Part shown: positions 36,674 through 38,785 of the stretch, one piece after another | How positions within the stretch are numbered: the stretch's first letter is position 1 | Layout of the letters: every line of letters begins with the position of its first letter | DNA from: Oscillospiraceae bacterium | GTDB lineage: Bacteria; Bacillota; Clostridia; Oscillospirales; SIG627 | Assembly (NCBI GenBank): GCA_015064635.1 | Contig: SVRV01000003.1 | Span: 62,001 to 126,000, forward strand | Direction of reading: 5' to 3' | Length of the DNA: 64,000 nucleotides | Notes under the pieces: model-generated | Databases searched by the model: none | Told to the model about the DNA's origin: nothing | The model's input: the letters and a program-made list of their open reading frames with translations, nothing else | Position numbers and translations under genes: made by a program

Positions 36674-36764
36674 TGTGGTTGTAGCAAAATATGCCACAGG
36701 CATATTTTTTAACGCTTTGTCCCTCCGTGAGGTTCGAGTCCTTTCCAAATGATAATATGCAAAC

Positions 36765-36792
36765 AAAAAACCACCCCGATGGGGTGGCTTTT
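36765..36792 (-). terminator. intrinsic terminator of the four-helix-bundle gene
   Basis: AAAACCACCCC-GAT-GGGGTGGCTTTT, read on the minus strand ends in TTTTTTG. Confidence 0.8.
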
Positions 36793-36798
36793 GTGATG

Positions 36799-37143
36799 TT
36801 ATAATTTTTCTTTTAACGTTTTACAGCTTGCAATCAACATTCGTCTTATTCTTCCGCAAAGATTTCTAAGTTTTTTGAAATTGTTTTCGTCAATGGTATT
36901 TGTGTTGAATAAAAGCTGAAGCCATCCTTCGGTTTCACCGCATTCTTTAAGAGAAATTTCGAATTTAGAAAGCATGTCTGCCTTACTTTGCCCGTACTGG
37001 GCTTCACGGATGTTTGCATAAATGCTACTTGAACTTTTTCGTATTTGGAACATAGTGTTTGAAGGAATTTTTATGTTTTGACACAATATTTCTATGCTTG
37101 TTGCCAGCTTTTCGGAGTATTCCATTAAATAATTTTTCGCCAC
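36799..37143 (-). CDS. four helix bundle protein (S23 / Avd-like)
   Basis: GTG start with AAGGGGTG RBS; sequence pattern of the four-helix-bundle family known from 23S rRNA intervening sequences (SSSSIYANIREAQYGQSKADMLSKFEISLKECGETEGWLQLL). Confidence 0.8.
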   Translation of the reverse strand: MAKNYLMEYSEKLATSIEILCQNIKIPSNTMFQIRKSSSSIYANIREAQYGQSKADMLSKFEISLKECGETEGWLQLLFNTNTIDENNFKKLRNLCGRIRRMLIASCKTLKEKL

Positions 37144-37189
37144 TATATCACCCCTTAAGAGAAATTATACTACAAATTCAAGAAAAAAC

Positions 37190-37375
37190 AAGGCGTAAGC
37201 CTTGTATATCATCAAAACAAAGTTTTGTATATCATCAATACGGAGTATTGTATATCATCATTGCGAAAGTGGTTATATACACACTTGAAGGTGCGATGAT
37301 ATACAACAACGGCATTAAGCCGTTGTTGATGATATACAGCCTTCGGCTGATGATATACCATTGCTTTCGCAATGG
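37190..37375. repeat. inverted array of small hairpins separated by GTATATCATCA / TGATGATATAC linkers
   Basis: GTATATCATCA at 37204, 37227, 37250; TGATGATATAC at 37327 and 37348 (perfect), CGATGATATAC at 37294, TGGTTATATAC at 37270; a short stem-loop sits in each interval. Confidence 0.9.
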
Positions 37376-37376
37376 A

Positions 37377-37408
37377 TAAAAACTCCAAGTCACAAGACTT
37401 GGAGTTTT
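37377..37408 (-). terminator. terminator downstream of tRNA-Arg
   Basis: AAAACTCCAAGTC-ACAA-GACTTGGAGTTTT perfect inverted repeat. Confidence 0.85.
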
Positions 37409-37411
37409 GGC

Positions 37412-37484
37412 CTTCCCTACAGGACTCGAACCTGCCGCCTTCAGAATCGGAATCTGACGCTCTATCCGGATGAGCTAAGGGAAG
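37412..37484 (-). tRNA. tRNA-Arg (anticodon CCG)
   Basis: Minus-strand cloverleaf: CTTCCCT...AGGGAAG acceptor, D-arm TAGCTCATCCGGATAGAGC, anticodon arm TCAGA-TTCCGAT-TCTGA, T-arm GGCAGGTTCGAGTCCTG. Confidence 0.93.
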
Positions 37485-37507: not shown

Positions 37508-38785
37508 TTATTTTTTTGATTTCTTTCTTTTTGAAACTCTTATAAGGAATATAACGAGTATGATAACGGCTGTTGCGGTAAGTGTTATGGAAAGAATGTC
37601 CATAACGGTTGCGGCTGTGTTTCCGTCATTTAACTCCGTGAAGGTTTTTGTCTTGCTTTTTTTCTCAACGGCTTCCACTGCAATAAGTGTTTCTGTAAAA
37701 ACGTCATCGCCCACTTGAACGGTGACAGTACCCACTTTTTCGCCTACGGCTATGGGAGCTGTGAGTTTTTCATCAATATTGAGAGTCACAACAGGGGAGT
37801 CATCCAATGCTATCAGCGTGTCTATGCTGTTTTTTGCCTTTACTCCTATTTCCTCCGTTTTCCCCTCGGATACCTTTGCCATACCCAGCACGTCGGTATT
37901 GTTCAGAACGGTTTTTATAGAGTACTGTGCGAAATGATATTCGAAAAGCGTTATGGCATCGGTGAAAGCCATATTACCCTCGTAGTATCTGTCACGGTTT
38001 GCACCTAAAGTTACAAGAAGGTAGGTTTCGCCGTTTTTTGTAGCCTTGGTTATGAGGCATCTGCCTGCCTCGTCTGTAAAGCCTGACTTAACTCCGGTAA
38101 CATAGGGATAATAGAGAGGATTTTCCGGATCTTCGATTTCAATAGTTGTGTTAAGAACACGTTCTTCCGACTTATTGGTTGCCGGTATCGTACAGCTGTA
38201 CTCCTTGATTATATCACAGAAGGTTTGATTTTTCAAGGCGTATTCTGCGATTAAGTACATATCTTTGGCTGTGGAATAGTGGTTGTCATTGTGAAGACCG
38301 TGGGCGTTTACAAAATGAGTGTTTGTGGCGCCGATTTCAATCGCCTTAGCATTCATTTTCTCAGCAAAGGCTTCAATGCTTCCCGAAACATACCAGGCAA
38401 GAGCATTTGCAGTATCACAGGTCGAGCGAATCATGGTGGCACGGATGAGGTCACCGACTGTTACCTCTTCGCCCGTTTTCAACTTCATATTAACACCGCC
38501 GCCTGCGTAAACATCGTCGAATATGCCCGACGGCATTGTAACAATTTCGTCAAGCGACTCGCAGTGCTCGATTGCCAGAATACATGTCATTACCTTTGTG
38601 AGGGAAGCGGGGTAGGTAAGGACTTCACTGTCAAGCTCGTAGACTACCTTGCCCGTATCGGTATTCACCATATAAACGTGGTCGGAATAAATGTTTTTTC
38701 CGTCCGCAAAGAAGTCATCTGCGTTGACAGTCAGTGTGAAAAGTGTTATAATTATAAAAAATGATATAAGTAAACGTTTTTTCAT
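37508..38785 (-). CDS. D-alanyl-D-alanine carboxypeptidase (PBP5/6 / DacF-like)
   Basis: SXXK in YPASLTKVMT, SxN-region STCDTANALA, KSGFT; signal peptide and C-terminal TM. Confidence 0.9.
   Translation of the reverse strand: MKKRLLISFFIIITLFTLTVNADDFFADGKNIYSDHVYMVNTDTGKVVYELDSEVLTYPASLTKVMTCILAIEHCESLDEIVTMPSGIFDDVYAGGGVNMKLKTGEEVTVGDLIRATMIRSTCDTANALAWYVSGSIEAFAEKMNAKAIEIGATNTHFVNAHGLHNDNHYSTAKDMYLIAEYALKNQTFCDIIKEYSCTIPATNKSEERVLNTTIEIEDPENPLYYPYVTGVKSGFTDEAGRCLITKATKNGETYLLVTLGANRDRYYEGNMAFTDAITLFEYHFAQYSIKTVLNNTDVLGMAKVSEGKTEEIGVKAKNSIDTLIALDDSPVVTLNIDEKLTAPIAVGEKVGTVTVQVGDDVFTETLIAVEAVEKKSKTKTFTELNDGNTAATVMDILSITLTATAVIILVIFLIRVSKRKKSKK

Follow-up and report, generated by a model that had tools for sequence, protein, structure and literature searches.

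The window analysed here, a 64,000-nucleotide stretch of an Oscillospiraceae genome, carries an array of small hairpins between a tRNA gene and a gene for a four-helix-bundle (4HB) protein of the S23P/IVP family. The features of the locus are as follows, with the strand given where one applies:

36799..37143, minus strand: gene for a 4HB protein of 114 aa, S23P/IVP family (PF05635, TIGR02436)
37164..37191, minus strand: candidate promoter of the 4HB gene, recognized by eye, with -35 TTGTTT (37186-37191) and -10 TATAAT (37164-37169)
37190..37203: outer hairpin AAGGC-GTAA-GCCTT (sequence, fold)
37204..37214, plus strand: linker GTATATCATCA, exact match
37214..37226: hairpin AAAAC-AAA-GTTTT (sequence, fold)
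37227..37237, plus strand: linker GTATATCATCA, exact match
37237..37249: hairpin AATAC-GGA-GTATT (sequence, fold)
37250..37260, plus strand: linker GTATATCATCA, exact match
37259..37269: array centre CATTGCGAAAG, complementary to 37364-37374 of the terminal hairpin HP0 (alternative pairing)
37280..37293: imperfect central hairpin CACACTTGAAGGTG (sequence); other loci have a perfect hairpin here
37294..37304, minus strand: linker GTATATCATCG, one mismatch
37305..37327: hairpin AACAACGGC-ATTAA-GCCGTTGTT (sequence, fold)
37327..37337, minus strand: linker GTATATCATCA, exact match
37338..37348: hairpin AGCC-TTC-GGCT (sequence, fold)
37348..37358, minus strand: linker GTATATCATCA, exact match
37358..37375: terminal hairpin HP0, CCATTGC-TTTC-GCAATGG (sequence), with arm and loop complementary to the array centre
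37379..37408: bidirectional terminator-like hairpin AAAACTCCAAGTC-ACAA-GACTTGGAGTTTT, an inverted repeat and part of the putative mobile unit
37408..37484, minus strand: tRNA-Arg(CCG) (ARAGORN; Rfam tRNA, 57.9 bits), at whose 3' end the array element directly starts
37508-38785, minus strand: D-alanyl-D-alanine-carboxypeptidase-like gene, putative dacF, named by appearance

Along the minus strand (T+), the dacF-like gene is thus followed by tRNA-Arg(CCG), a terminator consisting of an A-run, hairpin and T-run, ATCC with the terminal hairpin, linkers and hairpins, the centre, reverse-complement linkers and hairpins, the candidate promoter and the 4HB gene. The stem-loops that an earlier note on this DNA had placed between 37190 and 37375 are all present at those positions. 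Its linkers also stand where they are exact (37204, 37227 and 37250 on the plus strand, 37327 and 37348 on the minus strand) and in the degenerate copy at 37294, but the "degenerate linker" at 37270 is a stub behind the imperfect central hairpin and no true linker. The array element is longer than that description allowed and includes the adjoining terminator at 37379-37408; the complementarity between the core of the centre, TTGCGAAAG (37261-37269), and the terminal hairpin (37364-37372) is likewise new. With up to one mismatch allowed, GTATATCATCA has 12 matches in the whole 64-kb window against 1.16 expected, a number that 0 shuffles reach, and 6 of the 12 fall inside a 155-base part of the array.

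Folding of this stretch is far more stable than expected from its composition, with the T+ strand reaching -49 kcal/mol as DNA compared with -16.7 kcal/mol in shuffles (z -10.6) and -79.7 kcal/mol as RNA (z -10.1), and with the plus strand as RNA giving a z of -10.3 against shuffles. The proposal that the mirror halves pair into a rod is borne out by the minimum-energy DNA fold, which has linker:linker helices with a hairpin at every junction. Across loci, the arm and loop of HP0 are complementary to their own centre over 9.6 nt on average, compared with 6.1 nt when centres are swapped, so HP0 has two possible pairings, one within its own stem and one to the centre.

The earlier note had proposed to check its candidate by a genome-wide search with stem covariation and by association with four-helix-bundle genes. 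A pattern of two exact linkers, searched in the GTDB genome set, found at least 120 stretches, of which those listed are nearly all from Clostridia and mostly from animal guts; the arrays come from draft and metagenome-assembled genomes. Among the matches listed, ∼135 arrays with the window linker, parsed in one orientation, have a common plan: a tRNA or tmRNA 3' end, a terminator, variable hairpins alternating with linkers, a centre, and variable hairpins alternating with the linker in reverse complement. A promoter and a gene often come next. An A-run/hairpin/T-run precedes ATCC in nearly all homologous arrays, and one linker word is common to both halves of an array. The 332 between-linker units are of 229 distinct kinds, with perfect stems that average 5.7 pairs compared with 2.7 in shuffles. 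That stems vary while pairing is kept is confirmed by 24 different sequences at one array position, where doubly changed cells number 22 versus 6.5 in shuffles, with a covariation score of 0.359 versus 0.114 shuffled (0/500) and with failure of all slid controls.

No known RNA family was recognized: in Rfam 15 only the neighboring tRNA exceeds its threshold, with the best other model at 23.4 versus 45 bits. The original description of an undescribed structured element with varying stems, constant linkers and mirror halves able to pair holds, and we found no account of such arrays in the open-access literature, where absence is no proof. A CRISPR array, with direct repeats and unrelated spacers, was rejected because the "spacers" are palindromic and the orientation flips at the centre. 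By eye, two array layouts can be told apart, one in L028, L031 and L282 and the other in the window, with units of a linker followed by a GNA loop directed inward or outward; the inward layout has GTATATCATC and GTATGGAATC linkers and the outward layout has RTGAWRT-type linkers.

The window protein is a clear member of its family (PF05635, E 3e-19, 69.6 bits against a cutoff of 33.8; TIGR02436, E 3e-21, 75.5 bits against a cutoff of 24). Its AlphaFold model (pLDDT 94.7) is predicted to have the four-helix-bundle fold of a pentamer-type subunit, with the best fold matches to S23P (2RLD, TM 0.86, and 2GSC), followed by the Avd protein of diversity-generating retroelements (DGR; 4DWL, TM 0.77). 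No match to a defense or phage family was found in PADLOC or PHROG. The window's genome encodes 8 TIGR02436 genes, 7 of which are preceded, as judged by eye, by mirror arrays that follow this plan but differ in linker word. A de novo array finder, which was supplied with no linker and tested on 99 TIGR02436 genes of the order, called arrays upstream of 49/99, downstream of 1-2, and in 0/107 shuffles, with >15 linker words in the upstream arrays. Genome tiles from dacF-homologue loci were positive in 1/184 cases, in a set that includes L157, itself array-bearing. Each of ten array-negative loci of the order, when inspected by eye, turned out to have an array overlooked by the finder (only half an array in L238). 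For 44/99 of these 4HB genes, a same-strand tRNA or tmRNA gene is present <600 nt upstream, compared with 0 on the opposite strand. Canonical IVP genes across the phylum, a sample taken best-scoring first and thus biased to the canonical type, had neither an array (0/27) nor a tRNA (0/27). The association with four-helix-bundle genes is strong and clade specific (49/99 versus 0/27).

Plasmid-borne 4HB genes of other phyla had no convincing arrays, with L288 giving a weak strict score of 4 on a very long branch. Three plasmid loci carry their TIGR02436 gene among defense genes: between cas2 and cas1 in Anabaena (L284), between DISARM drmD and a type IIL restriction gene in Planktothrix (L288), and between hsdS and hsdR in Monoglobus (L289).

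In the protein tree, all arrays of the order lie inside one clade (fork 99/92), and the sole array call outside it is weak and on a very long branch. Linker similarity is correlated with protein identity (Mantel-type r 0.45, 0/2000 permutations), still at 0/2000 permutations once pairs with >80% identity are removed, and the share of pairs with ≥7/8 linker bases in common falls from 51% at >80% protein identity to 19% at 65-80% and ∼1% at <55%. Among pairs with <60% protein identity only a weak correlation is left (r 0.13, 58/2000 permutations), and common descent, which by itself would also tie linker to protein, could partly account for the relation. The 4HB proteins of the window and of L031 are examples from different clades, and linker words include GTATATCATC and GATGAAAT. 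We note a 4HB chimera at L107:6579-6950, whose N-terminal half resembles the GTATATCATC clade and whose C-terminal half resembles the GTGAAGT clade, next to a GTATATCATC array; array and gene start may travel together by ordinary recombination.

Where the flank is present, which the tRNA search requires, arrays often sit directly behind stable-RNA genes: a tRNA (of many kinds) or tmRNA gene ends <130 nt upstream of 48/90 arrays. The site is not restricted to tRNA, since a tmRNA gene immediately precedes the array at L094:379-746 and a further one lies ahead of that of L227. Different genomes share near-identical terminator-plus-array units of ∼220 nt, with the same terminators, downstream of different tRNAs. 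Those of L079 and L124, at tRNA-Leu and tRNA-Pro, are 95.4% identical along 219 nt, and those of L052 and L132 94.7% along 228 nt (with the tRNA of L052 uncalled), with dissimilar flanks in both pairs. One contig, L140, has two copies at 90% with unrelated flanks, and the window's genome has a dispersed copy on C1 and C17. The placement of tRNA-Arg(CCG) behind dacF is shared with four congeners, and the site has five different states in the five congeneric genomes: besides that of the window, it is empty in L155 and is filled in L156 by another hairpin unit in three tandem copies, in L157 by a tandem pair of arrays together with a copied 3' end of the tRNA, and in L158 by a 4HB gene, another ORF and a partial array. 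From these differently filled sites and unrelated flanks, terminator and array appear to move between sites as one mobile unit. As for carriage by viruses, the linker pattern had 7 matches in IMG/VR, of which 5 were inspected and none was an array. In two unannotated fecal "phage" contigs, L282 (MT835815) and L283 (MT835590), a mirror array does stand upstream of a 4HB gene, preceded in L282 by a tRNA-Arg; these contigs may be host DNA.

The first downstream gene encodes a 4HB protein in 12/42 arrays with a callable gene. Varied genes follow the others, a pattern that would fit non-autonomous copies as well as a unit supplying a promoter. Directly after the array in L073, L079, L090 and L094, a stretch AAACTCACCGATAAATAAGAATTTGA is conserved behind the promoter and before different genes, perhaps as a shared leader.

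Several loops were originally called GNRA-like or purine-rich, but only 11/53 tetraloops are GNRA. In linker orientation, 41/70 triloops are GNA and 1/70 is TNC, with a C-G closing pair in 63/70, and the 53 tetraloops include 21 GNNA, 10 CNNG and 0 UUCG; d(cGNAg), d(cGNNAg) and CNNG are the better description. These three types are said, in work associated with Hirao and with Nakano and Bevilacqua, to form unusually stable DNA hairpin loops. Extraordinarily stable DNA mini-hairpins also exist as a notion in the literature (PMC10527192). Owing to the mirror symmetry, the stable-DNA types are confined to one half of the array on each strand. The loop types favor a role as single-stranded DNA, short of proof.

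We hypothesize a small mobile element that lives directly behind tRNA and tmRNA genes and has two halves, the array as its nucleic acid and the cognate S23P/IVP-type 4HB protein, a reading that we give an even chance of being right. The wider claim, that this is a new class of mobile element in which S23P/IVP pentamers read clade-specific linkers in mirror arrays folded from single-stranded DNA and colonize the 3' ends of stable-RNA genes, is more tentative, and we put it somewhat below an even chance. Full copies would encode the 4HB protein, and copies without it resemble non-autonomous ones. As single-stranded DNA (or RNA), the linker-plus-hairpin units would adopt the shape of a rod with stacked junctions. 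The pentamer-type protein would recognize these units, probably while the strand is single, behind the replication fork or during transfer, and copying of the element, or its insertion at stable-RNA 3' ends, would depend on the resulting complex. The cutting or copying enzyme would come from outside the element, from the host or acting in trans, because the element encodes no recognizable transposase or reverse transcriptase. In the window's genome (90% complete), at family thresholds, Y1 (HUH) transposase PF01797 had 0 matches, with control genomes positive, and reverse transcriptase PF00078 had 0; there were two tyrosine recombinase matches. The case for mobility is comparative, and we infer the binding of protein to array. 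Counting against the model, many arrays precede genes other than 4HB, the L107 chimera may point to spread by ordinary recombination, the linker-protein correlation fades among distant proteins, and duplication of the tRNA 3' end, expected of site-specific insertion, is found in only 3/49 arrays with a usable tRNA tail. With three cases, such duplication was rejected as a general rule.

By analogy, the best reading is that such an element would be REPIN/RAYT-like in logic. REPIN/RAYT systems and BIMEs are likewise short, palindromic, mirror-arranged intergenic mobile repeats (PMC3116915, PMC3686654), some REPIN/RAYT copies have a cognate protein gene, and the repeat covaries with the protein clade, as here. 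However, two features that define REPIN/RAYT are absent: RAYT is a Y1 HUH transposase whereas the partner here is a four-helix bundle, and REP conserves the palindrome whereas window-type arrays conserve the linker and vary the hairpins. The position behind tRNA genes also differs. Intervening sequences (IVS) of 23S rRNA share the protein family and fold, the link to a stable-RNA gene, and repeats upstream of the ORF; they lie inside the 23S rRNA gene with an S23P/IVP ORF, are cut out by RNase III, have long been suspected to be mobile, and in Coxiella carry tandem heptamers upstream of the ORF (PMC4990558). Unlike these, the arrays lie behind tRNA and tmRNA genes, and that of the window is an eight-hairpin mirror array adjoining tRNA-Arg, with its 4HB gene between protein-coding genes and no rRNA match. 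DGR Avd is alike in fold, but unlike a DGR or group II intron, the window's genome lacks a reverse transcriptase match. Integron attC sites and gene cassettes similarly keep structure while sequence varies and have variable downstream genes, but the arrays have many hairpins and use the tRNA 3' end as their site, and near them no integron integrase or attC core was recognized.

An alternative that we regard as unlikely but worth weighing is that the array works as structured RNA, either a leader or a small RNA, with transcription running up to the bidirectional terminator or on into the mRNA of the 4HB gene, and is bound by a self-regulating 4HB protein. The RNA fold is very stable, the terminators bear an A-run and a T-run, the arrays of L279, L257 and L030 adjoin the gene start with no promoter evident by eye between them, and the related Avd sits in a ribonucleoprotein reverse transcriptase of DGRs (PDB 8UB7, among the fold matches). 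However, TATAAT occurs within 140 nt past the array in 49/76 arrays, compared with 8% of random pieces, and the terminator lies before it, which in the usual layout puts the array outside the 4HB transcript; with arrays between terminator and promoter in many loci, RNA is not the obvious functional form. Most arrays are also followed by unrelated genes, and the C-GNA-G loops are not specifically of the GNRA/UNCG kind.

It is improbable that the array is instead a stationary REP-like DNA-binding platform, coated by the 4HB protein, that insulates the strongly transcribed tRNA unit and has spread by recombination with no active mobility. Its constant place between the tRNA terminator and the next promoter would fit, but near-identical units behind different tRNAs with dissimilar flanks, and an orthologous site that is empty or differently filled, argue against it. 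We consider rather improbable a cassette that targets tRNA genes and is mobilized in trans by a tyrosine recombinase, for which the folded array would serve as an attC-like site. Copies of the tRNA 3' end between tandem units in L091, L129 and L120, another element present as three units in tandem in L156, the two recombinase matches and the variable genes behind arrays are consistent with this, but such copies are rare, the same unit lies behind different tRNAs with different 3' ends, and each array has many hairpins rather than one folded site. The possibility of chance, or of a decayed simple repeat or an assembly artifact, the two refutations named in the earlier note, is negligible given the covariation, the 0/107 shuffles and the dozens of independent assemblies, and we found no point in its support.

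S23P/IVP proteins are widespread, and to our knowledge they have no known function, although genes for them were discovered in rRNA insertions decades ago. The arrays link one clade of the family to a specific, covarying nucleic-acid partner, with both tied to tRNA and tmRNA 3' ends, and make its function directly testable through binding specificity and insertion. If true, the mobile-element model would provide a first function for the S23P family, and the system would either add a REPIN/RAYT-like partnership without the known transposase kinds or expose a new regulator of tRNA-proximal DNA.

A second repeated element also occurs at tRNA sites, in the window at 36715-36795 (minus strand, with GGAAAGGACTCGAACCTCACGGAGGGACAAAGCGTTAA) and in L156 (three tandem copies), L021 (1739-1868), L028 and L184. 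It consists of an inverted T-arm-like GGACTCGAACC followed by a GGGACAAAGCGTTAA-hairpin, and in L156 and L021 it is closed by a direct copy of the 3' end of the neighboring tRNA, such that it looks tailored to each tRNA.
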